Source of the DNA: Elusimicrobia bacterium RIFOXYD2_FULL_34_15
GTDB lineage: Bacteria > Elusimicrobiota > UBA8919
Assembly (NCBI GenBank): GCA_001800605.1
Contig: MGVS01000051.1
Coordinates: forward strand, 1 to 39,326
Direction: 5' to 3'
Length of the DNA: 39,326 nt
The notes beneath the pieces were generated by a model. It was not told the origin of the DNA. It did no database searches and saw only the letters and a program-made list of their open reading frames with translations. Every line of letters starts with the position of its first letter. Positions within the stretch are counted from its first letter, which is position 1. Below are positions 3 through 11,867 of this stretch, piece by piece. The position numbers were made by a program, and so were the translations under genes.

Positions 3-3000
3 GGTACAGTTTGGATGGACGATGCCAGCTTAAGTGAAGTTAATACTAATATTGTTAGTACACAAAATACAATTCCCGGAAATTTCTTTGGTATGCATAT
101 TTGTCATTGGGATGATTATAATTATAAAGTTTGGCCGGAATTTTTACAGTTTAAAACTATGCGGTTATGGGACACGCGGACTGACTGGAGAGATGTTGAA
201 CCGACAAATAATAATTGGAATTGGAGCCGGCTTGATTTAGTTGTAAGTACAGCTGTAAAATTTAATTGTGATCTAATCTATAATTTTGGCAGGACACCTA
301 CTTGGGCAGCAAGTGATTGGAAACTTCCGCCGGCAAATATTGCAGACTGGCGTAATTATGTTAATACAATTGCCACCCGATATAAAGGAAAAATAAAATA
401 TTGGGAAATATGGAATGAAGTTAATACCGGTGGTTTCTATACGGGCACCGTTGAACAAATGGTTGAAATGACAAGAGTTGCATATGAAGAATTAAAAGCT
501 GTAGATTCTACTAACATAATTCTTTCTCCGAATATAACAAGGGTGTATGGAATTGAGTGGCTGGATAAATTTCTTAATGCAGGCGGCGGACAGTATGTAG
601 ATGCTATTGCTTTTCATTTATATGATGATAATCTATATAGGCCAGAATTAGATAAGCCATTGGTGGCATCCATAAAGAACCTTATGGAAAATTACGGTAT
701 AAGTAATAAACCGCTTTGGAATACTGAAGGTGCGAACGGCACATCGCTTACTACTGATGATTCTGCGGGTTCTGTTGCAAGAATGTATATTCTGCAATGG
801 GCATGGGGAATAAATAATTTTTGTTGGTATGGCTGGGATCTTGATGTAGGTAATCCGTTAAGTCAGCCAGGTTATATTCAACCAACAGCCGCAGGTACTG
901 CGTATCCCGAAGTTGTAAAATGGTTACGTGGAAATCAGATGATGAATATCAACAAGGATACTAACGGAACATGGATTGTTAATATAAAAAATGCAGACTT
1001 ATCTTTATCATATATTGTCTGGAATCAAAATGGAGCAAGGTCATTTACCATACCCGGGAATTGGTCAGTTCAGACCAAGAAGGATCTGGCAGGTCTTTCA
1101 GTATCTGCTACACCTGGATCTTCGATATCTATCGGGGTTTCGCCGGTTTTACTCGGAGCTGCTGCTCAAGACACAGTATCGCCTGCCCAGATAAATACTT
1201 TAAATCAAAACTCTATAACTCAGAACTCTATAACTCTTAATTGGACAGCAGTAGGCGATGATGGAACAACCGGAGTAGCTCAGACATATGACATAAGACT
1301 TCAGACTTATGCGATAACAGCAAGTAATTGGAATAACGCTACACAATGCACAGGTGAACCCGCACCACAGACATCAGGTACAAACCAAACATACACAGTA
1401 AATGGACTTACAGCAGATACAACATATTATTTTGCGATGAAAGTAGCTGATGAAACACCTAATTGGTCCGGTATAAGTAACATAGTTATTGGTAAAACTC
1501 TGGCAGGAACACCACCGATAGCTAAATGGCATCTTGACGAAGGAACCGGAACAACAACAGTGGACGCATCAGGGAATAATAATACAGGAACATTAATTAA
1601 TGGCCCTGTTTGGGTAAATGGTAAATCAAATAAGGCAGTAAAATTTGACGGAATAAGCGATTATATATCGGTAGCTAGTTCAACAAGTTTAGATATGGGT
1701 ACCCAGGATTTTACAATAACAGCATGGGCTGACTTTGATGAATTAACAACTGCAAGACATGCGATTGTAGGGAAAATTACCGGAGATCCGACAAATAGTC
1801 CTGCGATGAGATATGGATATGTGTTAGCTGTCCTTAATAACCATCTTTTGCGGTTTTCAGTAACAGGCGGTGTAAATATTTTTAGATTTGCGAACTATAC
1901 ACTAACCGGAGCAAACCTTACCGGATGGCATTTAGTAACAGGTGTGTGGAATGCCGCAACAAATACGGCAAAGTTATATTTAGACGGATTAGAGGTAGCA
2001 TCAAATTCATTAGTTTCTGGAACAGTTGGCAATATTGATAACACAAATAAGCTAACTATTGGTCTTGCTGCCGGCTCAGGATATTACAAAGGCATTATTG
2101 ATGAAGTCAGTATTTGGAACCGTGTATTGAACACAACTGAAATTTTATCCCTTTATCAGAACGTTCCGGTATCGCCGGATTTGACAGCACCACAAGCAAT
2201 AAACAATTTGAATTTAACTAACTTATCATCGAACACAGTTACTCTAGGCTGGACGGCGACAGGTGATGACGGAACAACAGGAACAGCGACAAGTTATGAC
2301 ATACGTTATGCAACATATAATATAACATCAAATAGTTGGGGCAATATAACACAATGCAGCAATGAACCGACTCCAAAATCAAACGGCAATTTGGAAACAT
2401 TTATAGTAGTAAATCTGCAAGCTGATACGACATATTATTTTGCAATAAAAGCGGTAGACGAATATAATAATATGTCCACATTATCCAATGTAGCAAGTGG
2501 TAAAACTGTAACTATAGTAGGAGCAGACACAACGGCTCCATCAACAATAAATACATTAACTACAAACATTCCGGCTACTAACTCTATAACTCTAAACTGG
2601 ACTTCCGTAGGCGATGACGGTACAACAGGCACAGCAAGTATTTATGATATACGTTATGCTACATACAGCTTAACCATTGGCAATTGGAATGGTGCAATTC
2701 TAGCGACAGGAGAACCAACACCAAGTGTCGCAGGAAGCAGTGAATTTTTTGTAATTAGTAATTTAACTACAAATACAACATATTATTTTGGAATCAAATC
2801 AGGTGATGAAATACCTAACTGGTCAGGAATATCTAATATAGCAATCGGTAGGACATTATCAGACACAACCGCACCGTCACAAATTACGAGTTTAGTGACG
2901 AGCAATTTTACTACAACCAGCATAACATTAAGATGGACATCGGTAGGTGACGATGGCACAACCGGAGCCGCAATTATTTATGATATCCGATATTCTACAT

Positions 3001-5651
3001 ACAACATTAGTGCTTTGAATTGGAATACGGTAACACAAGTTAATGAAGGATTTAGTCCACAGGGCTCAGGACGCAACGAGTCATATACTGTAACCGGTTT
3101 AATTAGCAATGCAACATATTATTTTGGCATCAAGACACGAGATGAAATCCCGAACTGGTCAGTATTATCCAATGTAGCGCAAGGAAAGACTTTAGCACCT
3201 ACGGGCGACATAACATTACCCTCACAAATAAATACACTAACAACAGATAATCCAACTCTTAACTCCGTAACTCTCAATTGGACATCAGTCGGTGATGACG
3301 GTACGATAGGAACAGCAAGTATTTATGATATACGTTTTGCTACATACAATATAACCAGTAGCAATTGGAACAGTGCAATTTCAGCAACAGGAGAACCAAC
3401 ACCAAATACGGCAGGAAGCAGCGAGTATTTGACAATTAGTAATTTGATAACGGATACAACATATTATTTTGGAATCAAATCAGGTGATGAAATACCGAAC
3501 TGGGCTGGAATATCTAATATAGCAATCGGTAGGACATTATCAGACACAACCGCACCGTCACAGATTACGAGTTTAGCGACGAGCAATTTTGCTACAACCA
3601 GTATAACATTAAGATGGACCTCAGTTGGTGAGGATGCAACAATCGGAACTGCAACAACTTATGATATAAGATATCAAACGTATACAATAACAGCCGATAA
3701 TTTTATAAACGCAATCCAAGTAAATGGAGAACCAATACCGGCTATATACGGTACAAATGAAAGTTTTACTGTAACCGGTTTAACAAGTAATACAACTTAT
3801 TACTTTGCAATGAAAGTTGGTGATGAAATTCCTAACTGGTCAGCACTATCCAACATTGCCATTGGTAAAACTATAATGGTAGTGGTGCCGGACACAACTT
3901 CGCCGAATGCGATAACAAACTTATCAGTTATAACAACATCAACTAACACAATAACCGTAACCTGGACAGCACCCGGTGATGACGGCACAATAGGAATTGC
4001 ATCGGAATATGACATACGGTATTATACAGATATTATAAACAGCGGTAATTGGGACAATGCAACACAATTAAACGAAGGATTTAGTCCTCAGAATTCAGGA
4101 AATATGGAAATATATACAATTACAGGTTTAACAGCAGGCACAACATATTACATAGCGATAAAAACGAAAGACGAATCATTCAACGAATCAGAGATATCCA
4201 ATGTAGCGAGCGGAAAAACACAACTGATACAGAGTGGTACAAAACCTAACACAGTAAGTTATCTGACATCAACACCGCAAAACAACAACAGCATACAGTT
4301 AAACTGGTTAGAATCAACTAGTGAAAACATAATGTGTTATAATATATACACAGCGGCTGGAAATGACGATATGAATTATGCAGTACCAAGTTATGTAGTA
4401 AGCAGCACAGAAACATCAATAACAATAAATAATTTAACAAACAATCAGGAATATAAATTTGTAGTAAGGGCAGTAAATAAAGACGGGAACGAAGATATCA
4501 ACACCAATATAATATCAGAAACTGCGGTAACAAGCATTGCAGATACAATACAAACAAAATTAACTTCACTTGTAAATGGTGTAAAAATAAGTGGAAAGAA
4601 CATACTATTAGTAGCAGACACAAATATAAGCGGCGAGGCATCAAGTATTTTATACGAATACAGAAAAGTAGGTGACACAGATTGGATAACTATACAGCCG
4701 GTACAAAGCAATACAGGCACAAGCAGTCCATCTTATATTCAATGGGATATAAGCAGCATGGAAGACAAACAACAATACAACTTGAGGACAGTGACAACAA
4801 ACAAAGACGGTTTAAGCAGTATAAACGGAAGTTACATCACTGTAACTGTAGACAATGAAGATCCTGATATTAAAGAAGGCATCAACTACAAATACGAAAG
4901 GATAGACAACCGTAAACTAAATACGATAAATATACTTGATACATATACAAATCTACTTAGCCAAGTAAAGATATCTACCGGTGTACTAACAAATGGTACA
5001 ACCGATAAATTATTAATAACTATAAATCCTCAAGATGCTCCATTAGTAAGTAAGAACCTGCTACAGATAGGATCAATTTATAAAATAGAAATGTATAGTG
5101 GTCAGCATGAATTTACGGATGACTTAGAAATAATACTCCCATACAAAGACACAAACAATGATAACCGGATACCTTCCGGTGACACTTTTAGCATAGCTGA
5201 TGCCGGTGGTTATAACACAGATATATCGGTAACAAAATTGATAGTTTGCACATTTAACAACATAACCGGCAAATGGGAGAAAGTAACAACAACCACAATA
5301 GATAGAATAAACAAAGTTTTAACCGTCAAAACCAAACATCTGTCATATTATGGGATATTTGCCGTAATACAAAATGATTTAATGACTGCACATGTATATC
5401 CAAATCCGTTTAAGCCAAGTTTAGGACATACAAAAATATACTTTTCAAATCTGACCAGTCATACAAATGTAAAGATTTTCAACACAACAGGAGAGCTGGT
5501 ATATGAGGAAGAAAAAGACACGCCTACCGGAGAGTTAAACTGGGATGTAAAAAATTTAAATGACAAGGAAATAGCCAGCGGCGTATACATATATATGATA
5601 ACAAATAACAATGGCCAAACCAAAAAGGGGAAACTAGCAATTATTAGATAG
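3..5651 (+). CDS. Giant secreted multidomain glycoside hydrolase, 5' end cut by the window
   Basis: The reading frame is open to the window edge. The codons before the first ATG (base 15) read G-T-V-W-M-D-D-A-S-L, typical of the end of a CBM4/9-like carbohydrate-binding module, so the true start lies upstream. Residues below count from that ATG. A clan-A-type TIM barrel occupies about 20-380. The likely acid/base is E135 in WEIWNEV and the likely nucleophile is E238 in LWNTEGA, most like GH39/GH5-related families. One FN3 domain follows (386-497), then a LamG/concanavalin-like domain (about 500-720). Six FN3 domains of 112-116 residues begin near 722, 838, 950, 1065, 1177 and 1293, with a further FN3-like domain near 1408. 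After these come Ig-like and ZU5-like segments and a C-terminal FlgD/type IX-like sorting domain (about 1787-1878, starting VYPNPFKPS). The protein is probably exported and surface-bound or released to attack polysaccharide. The substrate is unknown. Composition is rich in N, T and S and poor in K. Confidence 0.85.
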   Translation, partial: GTVWMDDASLSEVNTNIVSTQNTIPGNFFGMHICHWDDYNYKVWPEFLQFKTMRLWDTRTDWRDVEPTNNNWNWSRLDLVVSTAVKFNCDLIYNFGRTPTWAASDWKLPPANIADWRNYVNTIATRYKGKIKYWEIWNEVNTGGFYTGTVEQMVEMTRVAYEELKAVDSTNIILSPNITRVYGIEWLDKFLNAGGGQYVDAIAFHLYDDNLYRPELDKPLVASIKNLMENYGISNKPLWNTEGANGTSLTTDDSAGSVARMYILQWAWGINNFCWYGWDLDVGNPLSQPGYIQPTAAGTAYPEVVKWLRGNQMMNINKDTNGTWIVNIKNADLSLSYIVWNQNGARSFTIPGNWSVQTKKDLAGLSVSATPGSSISIGVSPVLLGAAAQDTVSPAQINTLNQNSITQNSITLNWTAVGDDGTTGVAQTYDIRLQTYAITASNWNNATQCTGEPAPQTSGTNQTYTVNGLTADTTYYFAMKVADETPNWSGISNIVIGKTLAGTPPIAKWHLDEGTGTTTVDASGNNNTGTLINGPVWVNGKSNKAVKFDGISDYISVASSTSLDMGTQDFTITAWADFDELTTARHAIVGKITGDPTNSPAMRYGYVLAVLNNHLLRFSVTGGVNIFRFANYTLTGANLTGWHLVTGVWNAATNTAKLYLDGLEVASNSLVSGTVGNIDNTNKLTIGLAAGSGYYKGIIDEVSIWNRVLNTTEILSLYQNVPVSPDLTAPQAINNLNLTNLSSNTVTLGWTATGDDGTTGTATSYDIRYATYNITSNSWGNITQCSNEPTPKSNGNLETFIVVNLQADTTYYFAIKAVDEYNNMSTLSNVASGKTVTIVGADTTAPSTINTLTTNIPATNSITLNWTSVGDDGTTGTASIYDIRYATYSLTIGNWNGAILATGEPTPSVAGSSEFFVISNLTTNTTYYFGIKSGDEIPNWSGISNIAIGRTLSDTTAPSQITSLVTSNFTTTSITLRWTSVGDDGTTGAAIIYDIRYSTYNISALNWNTVTQVNEGFSPQGSGRNESYTVTGLISNATYYFGIKTRDEIPNWSVLSNVAQGKTLAPTGDITLPSQINTLTTDNPTLNSVTLNWTSVGDDGTIGTASIYDIRFATYNITSSNWNSAISATGEPTPNTAGSSEYLTISNLITDTTYYFGIKSGDEIPNWAGISNIAIGRTLSDTTAPSQITSLATSNFATTSITLRWTSVGEDATIGTATTYDIRYQTYTITADNFINAIQVNGEPIPAIYGTNESFTVTGLTSNTTYYFAMKVGDEIPNWSALSNIAIGKTIMVVVPDTTSPNAITNLSVITTSTNTITVTWTAPGDDGTIGIASEYDIRYYTDIINSGNWDNATQLNEGFSPQNSGNMEIYTITGLTAGTTYYIAIKTKDESFNESEISNVASGKTQLIQSGTKPNTVSYLTSTPQNNNSIQLNWLESTSENIMCYNIYTAAGNDDMNYAVPSYVVSSTETSITINNLTNNQEYKFVVRAVNKDGNEDINTNIISETAVTSIADTIQTKLTSLVNGVKISGKNILLVADTNISGEASSILYEYRKVGDTDWITIQPVQSNTGTSSPSYIQWDISSMEDKQQYNLRTVTTNKDGLSSINGSYITVTVDNEDPDIKEGINYKYERIDNRKLNTINILDTYTNLLSQVKISTGVLTNGTTDKLLITINPQDAPLVSKNLLQIGSIYKIEMYSGQHEFTDDLEIILPYKDTNNDNRIPSGDTFSIADAGGYNTDISVTKLIVCTFNNITGKWEKVTTTTIDRINKVLTVKTKHLSYYGIFAVIQNDLMTAHVYPNPFKPSLGHTKIYFSNLTSHTNVKIFNTTGELVYEEEKDTPTGELNWDVKNLNDKEIASGVYIYMITNNNGQTKKGKLAIIR

Positions 5652-7184: not shown

Positions 7185-7213
7185 TTGACAAACTACATGT
7201 AGTATGTTAAACT
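7185..7213 (+). promoter_or_regulatory. Sigma-70-type promoter of the nrdR-nrdG module
   Basis: TTGACA (7185-7190) and TAAACT (7208-7213) are separated by 17 bases, directly downstream of an A-rich tract (7150-7182) that could act as an UP element. A perfect 12-base palindrome, ACTACATGTAGT (7192-7203), fills the spacer, the expected place for a repressor operator. Confidence 0.65.
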
Positions 7214-7288
7214 TAAAACAATAGAACATATTGTAGTGTGTGGCTGTTATTTAGTGTAATAAATTTTACAAGATACAACATGTAGTAT
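7190..7288. promoter_or_regulatory. Candidate NrdR boxes (autoregulation)
   Basis: Three related words share TGTAGT with an A/T-rich palindromic left half: around 7190-7206 (perfect palindrome ACTACATGTAGT), 7225-7240 (ACATATTGTAGTGT) and 7274-7289 (ACAACATGTAGTAT). Known NrdR boxes are 16-base A/T-rich palindromes of the form acaCwAtATaTwGtgt, usually in pairs. The similarity and the position over the promoter of an nrdR-nrdD module support the call. The spacings here (34 and 49 bases between TGTAGT words) are not the classical 31-32, so the assignment is tentative. Confidence 0.45.
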
Positions 7289-7300
7289 TTGAAGGTACAT

Positions 7301-7759
7301 ATGAAATGTCCTTTTTGCGGGCGGAACGATTGCGATGTTAGTGATACTCGCCATATAGAAGAAAGTTCAATAATAAAAAGAAGAAGAGAGTGCATCCATT
7401 GTAAAAAAAGATTTACCACGTACGAAAGAGTAGAAATCCCTCCACTTACAGTAATAAAAAGCGACGGTAAAAGAGATCCTTTTAACGTTGAAAAATTGAA
7501 AAGAGGCATCAGAATGGCCTGTGTTAAAAGGCCGATACCTGAAGATATAATAGAAAAAATAATTAGTGAAATAGAAATGGAATTACAGGATTTTATTATG
7601 GAAGTTCCATCAAAAACAATAGGCGAAATGGTTTTGAAAAGTTTAAAAAAAATAGATGAAGTTGCATATGTGAGATTTGCTTCGATTTACAGGAAATTTG
7701 ACAGTGTTGATACTTTTTTAAAAGAGTTGGAAAAATTAAAAAGAAAAAATAAAGTTTAA
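7301..7759 (+). CDS. nrdR: Transcriptional repressor NrdR
   Basis: A 152-residue protein, the usual family length. It starts MKCPFCG, the standard NrdR beginning, which is why I chose the ATG at 7301 over an upstream TTG at 7289. A zinc ribbon is formed by C3, C6, C31 and C34, with the conserved segment DTRHIEESSIIKRRREC between the pairs, followed by RFTTYERVE. Residues about 49-139 are an ATP-cone domain that senses ATP/dATP. NrdR represses ribonucleotide reductase genes when dATP is high. Here it leads a module with nrdG and nrdD and probably controls its own promoter, where candidate operators are visible. Confidence 0.96.
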   Translation: MKCPFCGRNDCDVSDTRHIEESSIIKRRRECIHCKKRFTTYERVEIPPLTVIKSDGKRDPFNVEKLKRGIRMACVKRPIPEDIIEKIISEIEMELQDFIMEVPSKTIGEMVLKSLKKIDEVAYVRFASIYRKFDSVDTFLKELEKLKRKNKV

Positions 7760-7776
7760 TAATATTGATTTTAGTG

Positions 7777-7840
7777 TCCGCCACTAAGGCTATGGCGAGA
7801 CCTTCGGGCCACCACTGAAACGTTGGCGAGCCCTTCGGGA
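7777..7840. repeat. Two CCGCCACT-type mini-hairpins before the redoxin gene
   Basis: Two tandem copies of the window's short hairpin family lie here: CCGCCACTAAGGCTATGGCG (7778-7797) and CCACCACTGAAACGTTGGCG (7809-7828). Each is followed by a CTTCGG-capped turn. The second turn runs into the GGGAGGA Shine-Dalgarno sequence of the next gene, so folding could affect its translation. Confidence 0.6.
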
Positions 7841-7847
7841 GGATATT

Positions 7848-8228
7848 GTGGAAAAAGAAGTTTGTGAAGATGGCAGTTGTTCGTTGTCACAGGAAAAAAT
7901 GGATTTTATTAAATCCGGCGAAGTACTTAAAACTAAAAAACAGCCGGAAATTAGCATGGGAATAAAAATAAAAATATTTAGCAAAAAAGAATGTGATATC
8001 TGTAAAACAACCATAGGAAAACTCAACAGTGTTTTGTCACAATTTTCCAACAAACCGGCAATAATTCATTATGATTTTGATACACTTGACGGTTTAACGG
8101 AAGCTGCTGTAAGCAGCGCGTTTGATGTGCCGACAGTTTTAGTTGAAAAAAACGGCGTTGAAATTAAACGGTGGGGTGGAAGCACACTGGGATCAATGGA
8201 TAAGGAAATAGAAAATGTTTGTAGCTGA
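7848..8228 (+). CDS. Thioredoxin/glutaredoxin-fold redoxin with CxxC, likely NrdD reductant
   Basis: A 126-residue protein starting at GTG, 5 bases after a strong GGGAGGA ribosome site. After a charged N-terminal extension containing C6 and C11, residues about 38-125 look like a compact thioredoxin fold: beta strand IKIKIFS, then C49-D-I-C52 at the head of a helix, then the cis-proline motif DVPTVLV (P95) and a final strand with GG. A third cysteine sits at C125. It overlaps the activase gene by 14 bases, so the two are coupled. Some class III ribonucleotide reductases use a thioredoxin/NrdH-type protein instead of formate as electron donor. The location makes that role likely here, but it is inferred. 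It could instead be a general thiol-disulfide protein. Confidence 0.75.
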   Translation: MEKEVCEDGSCSLSQEKMDFIKSGEVLKTKKQPEISMGIKIKIFSKKECDICKTTIGKLNSVLSQFSNKPAIIHYDFDTLDGLTEAAVSSAFDVPTVLVEKNGVEIKRWGGSTLGSMDKEIENVCS

Positions 8229-8913
8229 TTATCTTGAAACATCTCTTTTAGATTGGGAAGGAAAAATATCCTGTGTTTTGTTTTTGTCTGGATGTAATTT
8301 CCGCTGTCCGTGGTGTCAAAATAAGGAACTTGCTTTGGGTAAAGCGGAAAATAAAATTTCGGTTACCGATATAATTAACAAGTTTAAAAATAAAAAGAGC
8401 TGGATCGATGGTTTTGTGATTACCGGTGGAGAACCCACGATAAATGCTGGTTTAAAAAATATAATTTCTGAAATCAAAAATAACGGATTTTCTGTAAAAA
8501 TTGATACAAACGGTTCAAGGCCGGATGTTATAAAAGATATTGTTTCATCCGGGATGGTAGATTTTATTTCAATGGATATAAAAACATCGCTTGATAAAAC
8601 CAAATATGATATTGCGTGCGGGGTAAGTGTGGATTTAAGTGCTATTAATAAGACAGTAGATATTTTATTAAATATAAATCCTTATGTCGGTGTTTCTTTT
8701 AGGACGACAGTAGTTCCCGGTATAACGGATGTTGAAGATGTAAAAGAAATAATAAAAAAAATAAAAAATAAAAAATACTCCATACAAAAATTTATTCCGC
8801 GTAATACGCTTGATGAAAAATATTCCGGTATAGAACCTTATACTGAAGCAGAAATAAAAGAAATGAAAGAGTTTGAGGGTAAAGAAAATATCAATAGGTT
8901 GGTAACGCTTTAG
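8215..8913 (+). CDS. nrdG: Anaerobic ribonucleotide reductase activating protein (radical SAM)
   Basis: A 232-residue radical SAM enzyme. The [4Fe-4S] cluster ligands are C27, C31 and C34 in SGCNFRCPWCQNKEL. The SAM-binding GGEP motif follows in GFVITGGEPT (about 65-74). It would use SAM to create the glycyl radical on NrdD. The ATG overlaps the redoxin gene by 14 bases, and nrdD follows after a 124-base gap containing a repeat element. The form resembles the bacterial and archaeal subfamily of pflA-like NrdG proteins (about 230 residues) rather than the 154-residue E. coli form. The symbol therefore rests on fold, motif and neighbour. Confidence 0.88.
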   Translation: MFVADYLETSLLDWEGKISCVLFLSGCNFRCPWCQNKELALGKAENKISVTDIINKFKNKKSWIDGFVITGGEPTINAGLKNIISEIKNNGFSVKIDTNGSRPDVIKDIVSSGMVDFISMDIKTSLDKTKYDIACGVSVDLSAINKTVDILLNINPYVGVSFRTTVVPGITDVEDVKEIIKKIKNKKYSIQKFIPRNTLDEKYSGIEPYTEAEIKEMKEFEGKENINRLVTL

Positions 8914-8927
8914 TTAAGAGTAGCAAG

Positions 8928-9008
8928 CCCCGTTAAAAAATGGAGTTTTGTAATATATTCAAAATATGAAATAGTTAAAGATAATATTAGCAACATTTTT
9001 GAACGGGG
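8928..9008. repeat. MITE-like inverted-repeat element, copy 2
   Basis: An 81-base element between nrdG and nrdD with ends CCCCGTTAAAAAATG and CATTTTTGAACGGGG. It is closely similar to copy 1 at 7046-7127 over its whole length. The ORF upstream of the true nrdD start runs into its right end, so an apparent N-terminal extension of NrdD is repeat-derived and not real. Confidence 0.75.
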
Positions 9009-9037
9009 TAAATGGTTTAAAGCCAGGGAGATGTTTT

Positions 9038-11488
9038 ATGAAAAGTTGGTTCAGTTATGTTAAGAAGGAAGATGGCAGGCTTGAGGCGTTTGACGAGAGT
9101 AAAATAATTACGTCTATCACTAGGTCAAGCCGGGAAGGGGGCAGTGAAAATAAGGAAACGGTAAATAAAGTTATACGCGATATTCTAAAAATATTGCGGG
9201 GTAGTTATCTCCCCGGAGAAACAATCATAACACAGGCAATAAGCGATGCAGTTGAGAAAGCTCTTATAGACGGCAGATTCGATTTGACGTTTCACTCATA
9301 TCAGAGAAGACGCATAGAAAAAAGCGAAATCCGTAAAAGGTTAAAAGTAGCAAAAAGAAAAGAAAAAGCAGATTCGACGGATCTCTCACTGCTTGTTCAG
9401 GCGGAAGTGGAAGAAGAGACATCTTTCTGGGATAAGACCAAAATAGCGGACGCATTGGTAAAAGAAGCAAAAATTTCTCACGCAGATGCAAGACAGATTG
9501 CAGGTAATGTAGAAAAAAGAGTTATTTCTTCCGGTGTAAATAAAATAACAACATCGCTTTTAAGGGAACTTGTAGACAACGAACTTCTGGCTTTAGGTTA
9601 TTCTTCAAAAATAAAGAAACAGGCATCTATTGGTATTCCGACATATAATCTTGAAGAAATAATATTTTCAAAAGGAAAAGAAAACTCAAATATTGCTGAA
9701 CATAATCCGGAAGCAATCAACCTTGCAATTGCAGAAATTACTTTAAAACAATACGCACTAAATAATATTTTTTCAAGGGATGTCGCAGATGCTCATTTAG
9801 AAGGACGCATTCATATACACGATTTAGGATATCCTACCAGAGTTTACTGCTCGAGCCATTCTCTTGAGTATATAAAGAAATACGGATTACAATTGGAAAA
9901 TCTCGAAATTATATCTTCGCCTGCGAAACACGCAAGAACGCTTACTGGCCATCTTAACACTTTTCTTGCTTCTATGCAGGCATATTATGCTGGAGCGCTG
10001 GGTGTCGGGTATTTGAATATTTTCTATGCACCTTATTTGGTAGATTCTACATATGAAGAGATGATTCAGGAAGCCCAGTATTTGATTTTTTCGCTTTCAC
10101 AATCGGCTTTTTCAAGAGGCGGACAGGTTTTGTTTTTAGATGCAAATATTCATACTGGAATACCGGCGTATTTGAAAAATGTTCCTGCAATAGGGCCTGG
10201 CGGTAAATATACAGGAAGAACATACGCTGATTACGAAAAACAGGCACAGATGTTTGCGATGGCCCTTCTCGATGTATGGAGAAAAGGCGATAAATATGGA
10301 CATGTCTTTGCTTTCCCGAAATGTGATTTACATATAAATGAAGAAACATTTTCTGATCCCAAACAGAGAGAGATTTTGGACTATGCGTGCCTGGTAGCTT
10401 CTGAAAATGGAACACCGTATTTCATTTTTGATAGGGATGCGGTTACTCTTTCCGCGTGCTGCCGTTTAAGAACAAAGATAACGGATAATTACATGATAGA
10501 ACATCCGGAGTCAATGCGCTTCTGCGGTTTCCAGAATGTTACAATAAATCTTCCTCAGGCTGCCTATAGGGCAGGCAGGGGAAATGTAGATAAATTGCTG
10601 GAAGAAATAGCGTTTGATATGGATTTATGCATAAAAGCACATCTTCAGAAAAAAAGTTTTGTAAAAAAACTTATGTCTGATAAAAATATGCCGCTTTATC
10701 AATTGGGGAGACCGGCATTAGATGAGAGGCCGTATGTTGATCTTGAAAATTCAACATATATAATGGGTATGTTAGGACTTAATGAATGTGTCCAGCACCT
10801 GACGGGTAGGCAGCTCCACGAGAACGACGAAGTATTCAAGTTAGGATTAAAGATAATATCTTACATGTATCTAAGAACAAAGGAATATGAAAAGAAATAT
10901 AATCTGAAATTCGCACTTGAGGAAAGTCCCGCAGAATCAGCGGCAAGAAGAATGGCAAAAGTGGACTTGCAAAGATTTCCGCAGGCAAAGGAAGTTATAA
11001 AAGGCGATATAAATAAGGATGAATATTATTATACGAATAGCATTCATTTCGCAGCTAATGCTCCGGTAGGATTGATTGACAGGATAGTTAAACAGAGTCA
11101 GTATCATTCTCTTATAGAAAGCGGTGCAATAGTACATGCATTTATTGGCGAAGAAAGACCGCAGCCGTCTTCAATTCTAAATCTTATTGAGAAAACCTGG
11201 AGAAATACAAAGTGTGCACAGATAACAATTTCTCCGGAGTTTACGGTCTGCAACGACTGCCATAGGATGGTTCGTGGAATAAAAGATGACTGCTCAAGAT
11301 GCGGTTCCGACAGCGTTTATGGCATAACGAGAATTGTCGGTTATTATTCAAGAATATCCAATTGGAATAAATCCAAAAAAGGTGAGTTGAAAGACCGACA
11401 TAAAGGTGAATATTTAGTGGAGGACAAAAATGCAGGTGAGAGTACTGAAATTAAAGAAAGAAATAAAACTTCCGCAGTATCAGCATAA
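9038..11488 (+). CDS. nrdD: Anaerobic (class III) ribonucleoside-triphosphate reductase
   Basis: An 816-residue glycyl-radical enzyme reducing NTPs to dNTPs without oxygen. I chose the ATG at 9038 because GGGAG lies 7 bases upstream. An earlier in-frame TTG at 8999 falls inside a repeat. The N-terminus carries one clear ATP-cone (about 1-95) and a second cone-like region (about 130-195) for allosteric control. The catalytic barrel follows. VYCSSHS and LSACCRLR supply active-site cysteines. A zinc site near the C-terminus has C738, C741, C752 and C755. The radical glycine is G768 in RIVGYY. The last 19 codons overlap dut, so the tail after the radical loop is longer than usual. The paired cysteines in ACCR and the adjacent CxxC redoxin suggest the redoxin-dependent rather than the formate-dependent type, an inference. 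Confidence 0.94.
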   Translation: MKSWFSYVKKEDGRLEAFDESKIITSITRSSREGGSENKETVNKVIRDILKILRGSYLPGETIITQAISDAVEKALIDGRFDLTFHSYQRRRIEKSEIRKRLKVAKRKEKADSTDLSLLVQAEVEEETSFWDKTKIADALVKEAKISHADARQIAGNVEKRVISSGVNKITTSLLRELVDNELLALGYSSKIKKQASIGIPTYNLEEIIFSKGKENSNIAEHNPEAINLAIAEITLKQYALNNIFSRDVADAHLEGRIHIHDLGYPTRVYCSSHSLEYIKKYGLQLENLEIISSPAKHARTLTGHLNTFLASMQAYYAGALGVGYLNIFYAPYLVDSTYEEMIQEAQYLIFSLSQSAFSRGGQVLFLDANIHTGIPAYLKNVPAIGPGGKYTGRTYADYEKQAQMFAMALLDVWRKGDKYGHVFAFPKCDLHINEETFSDPKQREILDYACLVASENGTPYFIFDRDAVTLSACCRLRTKITDNYMIEHPESMRFCGFQNVTINLPQAAYRAGRGNVDKLLEEIAFDMDLCIKAHLQKKSFVKKLMSDKNMPLYQLGRPALDERPYVDLENSTYIMGMLGLNECVQHLTGRQLHENDEVFKLGLKIISYMYLRTKEYEKKYNLKFALEESPAESAARRMAKVDLQRFPQAKEVIKGDINKDEYYYTNSIHFAANAPVGLIDRIVKQSQYHSLIESGAIVHAFIGEERPQPSSILNLIEKTWRNTKCAQITISPEFTVCNDCHRMVRGIKDDCSRCGSDSVYGITRIVGYYSRISNWNKSKKGELKDRHKGEYLVEDKNAGESTEIKERNKTSAVSA

Positions 11489-11867
11489 CGGTGATTCTTG
11501 TGTTGATTTAATAAATGCCGGTGAAGATGTTTTAATTAAGCCGTTTTCAAGACAGCTTATACCCACCGGTTTGAAAGTTTCTATTCCTGAAGGTTACGAA
11601 CTTCAGGTAAGGCCAAGAAGCGGATTAGCAATAAAAAAAGGTATTACAGTACTTAATACACCCGGCACGATTGATTCAGGTTACCGCGGGGAAATCTGTG
11701 CCATTATGTATAATAGCTCAAATGAAACTGTAGAAATAAAAAGCGGAGAAAGGATAGCACAAATGGCACTTTGTAAGGTAGAAAAGATAAATTGGGAAGA
11801 AGTAGAAGATTTAGATCAAACAGTAAGAAGTGAAGGTGGATTTGGTTCTACAGGTACACATAGCTAA
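11430..11867 (+). CDS. dut: Deoxyuridine 5'-triphosphate nucleotidohydrolase (dUTPase)
   Basis: A 145-residue protein of normal trimeric dUTPase length. The family motifs are visible in order: motif 1 near SCVDLINA, motif 2 RPRSGLA, motif 3 GTIDSGYRGEI with the uracil-contacting Tyr, motif 4 GERIAQMAL, and the C-terminal motif 5 GGFGSTGTH that closes over the triphosphate. It hydrolyses dUTP to dUMP plus pyrophosphate, lowering uracil in DNA and feeding dTMP synthesis (see the thyA-like gene at 15090). The ATG at 11430, with GGAGG just upstream, lies inside nrdD and overlaps it by 59 bases, indicating tight coupling to dNTP production. Confidence 0.95.
   Translation: MQVRVLKLKKEIKLPQYQHNGDSCVDLINAGEDVLIKPFSRQLIPTGLKVSIPEGYELQVRPRSGLAIKKGITVLNTPGTIDSGYRGEICAIMYNSSNETVEIKSGERIAQMALCKVEKINWEEVEDLDQTVRSEGGFGSTGTHS

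Follow-up and report, generated by a model that had tools for sequence, protein, structure and literature searches.

A probable NrdR-controlled, redoxin-dependent class III ribonucleotide reductase operon with a cysteine-tailed redoxin in an Elusimicrobiota genome

Introduction

Class III ribonucleotide reductases (RNRs) that are reduced by a protein have been little studied. The enzymes of Neisseria bacilliformis and Thermotoga maritima (NrdD2; NrdDh in RNRdb) use such a protein reductant, as described in PMC4493059 and PMC9669993, which, like all papers cited here, served as sources in excerpt. In this work we analysed a stretch of 39,326 nucleotides from Elusimicrobia bacterium RIFOXYD2_FULL_34_15 (assembly GCA_001800605.1, contig MGVS01000051.1, positions 1 to 39,326, forward strand; hereafter the window) and the gene series nrdR-redoxin-nrdG-nrdD-dut that it contains. 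Judged from its sequence, this is probably an NrdR-controlled operon for a redoxin-dependent class III RNR, in which an N-terminal cysteine tail of the redoxin may act as a dithiol relay. It would form a self-contained system with a likely dedicated electron donor and with what is apparently the sole RNR of its cell. The operon would permit a direct test of electron delivery to the active site of a class III enzyme that does not use formate, and related lineages supply natural controls, with redoxins that bear the tail, lack it or are fused.

According to the excerpts of PMC9669993, 83% of double-cysteine class III enzymes retain a finger-loop Met, so that formate use is possible for them, and an active-site Glu without this Met is the mark of enzymes likely limited to thioredoxin. 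In the same source, a further group, NrdD3, is defined by the absence of the Glu.

Active-site residues of NrdD

The features of the enzyme and of its activase are as follows.

8215-8913, + strand: nrdG2, radical S-adenosylmethionine activase (TIGR02495 NrdG2, 181.8 bits; cut-off 131)
9038-11488, + strand: nrdD, class III RNR with an N-terminal ATP-cone (ATG at 9038, in-frame TTG upstream at 8999; TIGR02487, 418.9 bits; cut-off 326)
9848-9850, + strand: C284, the beta-A cysteine (Cys in 32 of 32 aligned rows)
10454-10465, + strand: finger loop A486-C487-C488-R489, which aligns with SCCR of T. maritima
10919-10921, + strand: E641, active-site Glu equivalent to E495 of T. maritima (E. coli and L089 have Tyr here)
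11249-11302, + strand: zinc-site cysteines 751, 754, 765 and 768, from the alignment
11339-11341, + strand: G781, the predicted glycyl-radical residue (RIVGYYS), from the alignment

NrdD has all the marks by which a class III RNR is recognised, namely a score above the model cut-off, a C-terminal RIVGY, four zinc cysteines and an adjoining activase. Translation from ATG 9038 (816 aa) is more likely than from TTG 8999 (829 aa), as homologues, such as that of the related genome G001, begin at the corresponding residue. The segment LSACCRLR, whose double cysteine the initial annotation had pointed out, spans residues 484-491 as numbered in the TTG-8999 reading.

By its sequence, the window NrdD has NrdD2-type features: a double-cysteine finger loop, in which Ala486 replaces the Met of formate enzymes, together with the Glu E641 and the beta-A cysteine C284. 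It does not have the single-Cys MGCR loop without Glu of the formate-type NrdD1, and its Glu also sets it apart from NrdD3, which has neither Met nor Glu. We compared these positions in a 32-row alignment consisting of six NrdDs from the window family, three from Omnitrophota, that of G129 (another Elusimicrobiota family), 11 redoxin-fused proteins from the Elusimicrobiota family f6, eight MCCR-type Elusimicrobiota proteins (placed from the loci L049-L078), and those of E. coli, L089 and T. maritima; the NrdDs of G007 (cut by a contig end), L094/G083, L025/L027 (partial) and L072 (internal stop) are absent from the table. All 21 redoxin-linked or redoxin-fused NrdDs have A/QCCR and the Glu and lack the Met. 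In the remaining rows, the eight Elusimicrobiota proteins have MCCR with Glu, E. coli and L089 have MGCR without Glu, and T. maritima has SCCR with Glu. One genome, G085, encodes both a redoxin-fused QCCR NrdD (L085) and the MGCR formate-type NrdD of L089.

The initial annotation had argued for a redoxin-dependent enzyme from the neighbouring redoxin gene and from the cysteines. The first of these grounds held; the second is insufficient alone, because most double-cysteine enzymes keep the Met and because eight Elusimicrobiota NrdDs combine MCCR with Glu. The case for redoxin dependence, still the best reading of the sequence, rests instead on the missing Met, the Glu, and a redoxin that is conserved beside NrdD or fused to it. 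The same residues bear on a different protein-reduced enzyme, an NrdD3 type fed by a ferredoxin disulfide reductase via an NrdH-like redoxin. In its favour, the redoxin partner is a free-standing protein, and QCCR occurs in two of the three Omnitrophota rows, in G129 and in the f6 rows; however, the Glu is present in 21/21 whereas its absence defines NrdD3 in the excerpts of PMC9669993, and no such reductase was recognised beside the operon, a genome-wide search not having been made. We therefore consider this alternative very improbable.

Linkage of the redoxin to NrdD

The proposed electron donor is encoded directly ahead of the activase.

7848-8228, + strand: nrdD-associated redoxin, 126 aa (GTG start; thioredoxin-fold model)

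Its gene overlaps nrdG by exactly 14 bases (8215-8228), in agreement with the initial annotation, which had described a 126-aa CDIC protein coupled to nrdG by an overlap of this length. The order nrdR-redoxin-nrdG-nrdD was found in all seven NrdD-bearing genomes of the family (eight family genomes were searched), with a redoxin/nrdG overlap of 4-23 bases in six of the seven loci. Since the same order recurs in six other genomes, the arrangement in the window is not a matter of chance. In one of them, G003, nrdG looks truncated, with part of its N-terminal half and a short C-terminal remnant left (L032:2637-2913), through deletion, frameshift or assembly error.

No NrdD match was obtained in the eighth family genome, G004 (96% complete), or in its order-mate G008 (94%), and neither has a class I/II RNR; incompleteness or salvage are options here. 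Redoxin candidates in these two genomes (G004, profile E 8.4e-7 over residues 31-123 and single-sequence E 2.1e-4; G008, 7.7e-4) were rejected as other thioredoxin-like genes. By eye, both lie beside a CcdA-like membrane protein, with no nrdG or nrdD in view.

Outside the family, the redoxin was found in 14 of 285 Omnitrophota genomes. Here nrdD was adjacent in 14/14 loci, and the order was nrdD-redoxin-nrdG wherever nrdG was in view (11/14). A third lineage has nrdR-redoxin followed by nrdD in 3/3 genomes, and G129 has redoxin-nrdG-nrdD with a redoxin that lacks the tail. In family f6 the NrdD frame is lengthened to about 1010-1050 aa in 10 of the 11 matching genomes, G121 having only one of ordinary length and G085 one of each. 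The C-terminus of NrdD was a CxxC redoxin domain in all 11 f6 loci that were opened (total length 1006-1049 aa), which had been picked for a long frame (10) or for a redoxin match (G203). Pfam placed a glutaredoxin-like domain, under cut-off, on the one fusion submitted to it. Together, the conserved neighbourhood, the changed gene order and the fusion make it very likely from these sequences that the redoxin and NrdD share a function.

The redoxin profile A1 at 1e-6 missed the fused f6 domains, G203 excepted, and because it missed domains known to be there, little can be concluded where it matched nothing in other genomes. A search of plasmids for the redoxin gave no match, and a single match in viral contigs (L129), on a contig that by eye looks phage-like, was set aside as chance, its open reading frame (ORF) being unlike a redoxin.

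The redoxin and its N-terminal tail

Three parts of the redoxin were distinguished.

7848-7919, + strand: N-terminal cysteine tail, residues 1-24 (C6 at 7863-7865, C11 at 7878-7880)
7920-7961, + strand: variable linker, residues 25-38 (length varies; predicted local distance difference test score, pLDDT, <50 at residues 25-34)
7992-8003, + strand: active site C49-D-I-C52 (both Cys invariant in two alignments)

By its CxxC and its predicted fold, the protein fits the thioredoxin/glutaredoxin/NrdH family. Residues 39-126 form a minimal thioredoxin fold in the model (mean pLDDT of the whole model, 76.9). The best PDB matches of this model in Foldseek were thioredoxins (E 3e-6), and by sequence the PDB match was thioredoxin 6mos (E 1.1e-4). 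Against Pfam and NCBIfam the redoxin stayed under the curated cut-offs (PF00085, 13.4 of 23.5 bits, E 0.078), with no NrdH or glutaredoxin model matched.

An unusual N-terminal extension with C6 and C11 had been remarked upon at the outset, and both cysteines proved to be invariant in the seven family redoxins. The motif reads C-x2-G-x-C-x-L-x-Q-E-x4-I, of which C6, G9, C11, L13, Q15, E16 and I21 are invariant (7/7); the cysteine segment is CESG(S/K)C in four of the seven, CEDGSC in the window, and CTSGSC and CKSGNC in the others. A CxxGxC tail was not found in the more distant redoxins examined outside the family, which begin at the first strand or a few residues before it (MKIK...); one longer frame (L116) also lacked CxxGxC. 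The tail alone gave no match to PDB sequences. An open-licence literature search turned up no description of the tail or of Elusimicrobiota operons like that of the window, which is not proof that none is in print. The hexapeptide CESGSC also occurs near the C-terminus of an FmdB-type zinc-ribbon protein encoded beside thioredoxin reductase in G001 (L042:2304-2537).

The sequence data indicate that the extension is genuine coding sequence, given a Shine-Dalgarno-like stretch upstream of the redoxin start in 6/7 loci (weak in G006) and a low nonsynonymous divergence of the tail. Over 21 pairs, the mean nonsynonymous divergence (pN) was 0.24 for the tail, 0.62 for the linker and 0.22 for the core, at a mean synonymous divergence (pS) of 0.66-0.71; the tail is thus under a constraint comparable to that of the fold, unlike the linker. 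Individual pairs scatter more: the ratio of nonsynonymous to synonymous rates (dN/dS) of the tail, where computable among seven single pairs, was 0.10, 0.17, 0.50 and 0.50. In the closest pair, the window and G001, the tail value of 0.50, from two synonymous and five nonsynonymous changes, was not below that of the linker (0.43).

As an alternative to a relay, the tail cysteines might bind Zn or Fe-S, perhaps together with C49 and C52, or might dimerise the redoxin or act as a redox switch. Four cysteines (C6, C11, C49 and C52) are available for a metal site, and CxxGxC is similar to a portion of the motif of plant-type [2Fe-2S] ferredoxins. However, the third Cys of that motif is missing, position 14 being S, T or P in the seven rows, and the linker varies widely in length, as would rarely be seen at a fixed metal site. 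On balance we hold these roles to be unlikely and favour that of a dithiol relay.

A possible mechanism

The radical, disulfide and Glu chemistry is established for the class III RNR family, and on this basis a catalytic cycle can be proposed for the window enzyme. NrdG would place the glycyl radical on G781 of NrdD, from which it would pass to C487 or C488 of the finger loop and start NTP reduction. C284 and the other finger-loop cysteine would then donate two electrons, forming a disulfide, and E641, instead of formate, would supply the proton. The C49-x-x-C52 of the redoxin would re-reduce this disulfide, and the redoxin would in turn be reduced again, probably by the thioredoxin reductase that the genome encodes. 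The C6-x4-C11 tail, on its flexible linker, would be a dithiol relay between CxxC and a partner. Its simplest role would be to reach into NrdD, in the manner of the class I RNR C-terminal tail; a role as an upstream relay, from the reductase to CxxC, would fit equally well.

In class I enzymes the C-terminal tail ferries electrons from the redoxin to the active site, as reported in the excerpts of PMC5704485. It is conceivable, by analogy, that the redoxin carries a swinging redox arm in trans, a convergent re-invention of this tail, with CxxC and a tail that enters the RNR active site in one small protein; we put this forward tentatively. An arm would sit on the redoxin because in class III enzymes the glycyl-radical domain takes up the C-terminus. 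If true, the class I redox tail would have been invented anew on a redoxin.

RNRs, glycyl-radical domains and reductase in the genomes

No class I/II RNR (PF02867) was found in nine genomes, the window's own included, the search being positive in 11/14 controls. Pyruvate formate-lyase (PFL)-like proteins (PF02901) were not detected in eight of the nine, own included (3/14 controls positive), nor was the formate dehydrogenase alpha subunit (TIGR01591) in six of the nine, again with the own genome among them. Thioredoxin reductase exceeded its cut-off in 8/9 genomes. From these searches the window NrdD seems to be the sole RNR of its cell, whose genome, 97% complete, is without the two commonest formate makers.

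A second NrdD in the own genome was considered and dismissed, as the second PF13597 match is a short glycyl-radical domain only. Such free-standing NrdD-type domains of about 100 aa were seen at L105:1318-1632 (own genome, G000:C48), L104 and L106. In G000, G001 and G002 (three of the seven NrdD-bearing genomes) they follow a gene for an Rrf2-family regulator, and they score just under the Pfam cut-off; G003, G005, G006 and G007 have a single PF13597 match each, which is NrdD. Since the own genome gave no PFL match, the free domain may, by analogy, be a spare part for NrdD. Spare-part glycyl-radical domains have been validated for PFL only, according to the excerpts of PMC8683613.

In other Elusimicrobiota families NrdD is split in 9/9 loci (L073-L078, L090-L092), which had been selected for an NrdD match that ended early. 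Here the MCCR-type NrdD breaks off, at a heptad-like end, ahead of the glycyl-radical domain; the radical motif (CEVYSRVVGYLRP) lies in a separate downstream ORF of 58-101 aa, after a second heptad-like stretch. The NrdDs of L049, L050 and L055 are unsplit, and L072 has no clear ORF. The two pieces may together make up a glycyl-radical enzyme whose radical subunit can be exchanged; the open-licence literature search turned up no description of such a form.

Formate use and the phylogeny of NrdD

The enzyme might still use formate, the redoxin only keeping the cysteines of NrdD or NrdG reduced or helping activation; for the class III enzyme of E. coli, the excerpts of PMC4390871 report that thioredoxin played a part in activation. 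This is improbable given that the finger-loop Met is absent and the Glu present, that redoxin domains are fused to NrdD, and that the own genome has no PFL or formate dehydrogenase alpha match.

In a maximum-likelihood tree, a fully supported branch, which carries a long-branch warning, separated the 21 redoxin-linked or redoxin-fused NrdDs from the E. coli/L089 pair as well as the MCCR set. A phylogenetic check had been suggested by the initial annotation; in it, NrdD did not group with the E. coli formate enzyme, although long branches leave its deep placement unsure.

Several observations weigh against a redoxin-dependent enzyme with a relaying tail. Some relatives whose NrdD is of the same kind do have formate-related genes: formate dehydrogenase scored over the cut-off in G005 and G006 and under it in G002, which also has a PFL-like protein. 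Formate could also come from other sources, such as peptide deformylase, the search having covered PFL and formate dehydrogenase alpha. The T. maritima branch in the tree is 5.6 long, at an open fork, so that its placement, and with it a grouping of the window NrdD with the N. bacilliformis/T. maritima clade, is unsure; N. bacilliformis is absent, and the reference set is small. The cited work has two thioredoxin-type subclades, and the window NrdD may fall in a different one. An AlphaFold2 model of NrdD from a six-row alignment was too poor for the active site (mean pLDDT 49.9). Finally, L029, with its tail-less redoxin, has an NrdD that agrees with that of the window in the finger loop, the beta-A residue and the Glu, and no such tail occurs on the fused redoxins; the tail would thus be an improvement and not a need.

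Regulation and gene neighbourhood

The remaining features of the operon are listed here.

7190-7205, + strand: NrdR-box-like palindrome 1, AAACTACATGTAGTAT (pattern match)
7221-7236, + strand: NrdR-box-like palindrome 2 (one mismatch; 15-bp spacer from box 1)
7273-7288, + strand: NrdR-box-like palindrome 3, directly ahead of nrdR (no mismatch)
7301-7759, + strand: nrdR, RNR repressor (ATG at 7301, in-frame TTG upstream at 7289; TIGR00244, 184.6 bits; cut-off 125)
11430-11867, + strand: dut, dUTPase (NF001862, 182 bits), overlapping the 3' end of nrdD

The start of nrdR at ATG 7301 fits its homologues, which begin MKCPFCG or MRCPFCG. The boxes were searched for with a pattern for the NrdR consensus. 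Its 12-base core occurs without mismatch at two sites in the window, box 1 and 7275; 0.06 would be expected by chance, and none of 100 shuffles gave two. Box 1 is kept in 7/7 family loci at 0-1 mismatches. A second box at 31-32 bp is present in four of the seven, including the window, at up to two mismatches, and is not seen in the other three. A spacer of 15-16 bp is common in NrdR box pairs (PMC12051234, in excerpt), and the palindromes at 7190 and 7221 form such a pair of 16-bp elements upstream of the genes. The operon is probably under NrdR control, through boxes predicted by pattern.

Beyond the operon, downstream, lie guaB3, guaA, a thymidylate-synthase-like gene (score below cut-off), purC, purL and pyrG, so that it sits within a nucleotide-synthesis cluster. 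Between nrdR and the redoxin gene, the stretch 7777-7840 is GC-rich by eye and contains GGCGAGNCCTTCGGG twice (7794, 7825); its end provides the ribosome-binding-like sequence of the redoxin. By eye, the product of a 1878-aa ORF at 15-5651 resembles a secreted protein of several domains, in which modules are repeated and the C-terminal end is sorting-like.

Comparison with described systems

The E. coli formate-dependent NrdD1 shares with the window enzyme the barrel family, the glycyl-radical motif and four aligned zinc cysteines. It differs in having MGCR, with Met, and no Glu, whereas the window enzyme has ACCR with Glu. In Methanosarcina barkeri, an NrdH redoxin is reportedly encoded with nrdD, and a ferredoxin disulfide reductase is said to be the electron source of this NrdD3. 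This linkage of redoxin and nrdD is like that of the window; NrdD3, in contrast, has no Glu.

Fusion of a redoxin to an RNR component is known from Facklamia, where the redoxin was shown to be its reductant (PMC6187632, in excerpt). The f6 proteins, with their redoxin at the C-terminus of NrdD, are likewise fusions, whereas the window redoxin is encoded by a separate gene.

The tail of the family resembles the C-terminal CESGACKI of the E. coli class Ia NrdA (NC_000913) in its pair of cysteines with four residues between them; the four tails with CESG(S/K)C also share CESG-x-C with it, while the window's own reads CEDGSC. In NrdA, however, it ends the catalytic subunit, while in the window it begins the redoxin. 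The chance that at least three of the four inner positions agree between two random Cx4C is roughly 8e-4. Homology of the two tails is not claimed, as E. coli NrdA was picked after the fact and its spacing is a minority form: Cx4C, typified by E. coli, is given as such for class I in the excerpts of PMC9669993.

The closest systems are the NrdD2 enzymes of N. bacilliformis and T. maritima, which have the same double-cysteine loop without Met, beta-A cysteine and active-site Glu, although the T. maritima NrdD is distant (phmmer E ~2e-20). The window operon, for its part, encodes a dedicated redoxin. The window enzyme is a further member of an already known, NrdD2-like kind, and its tailed redoxin is a new variant.

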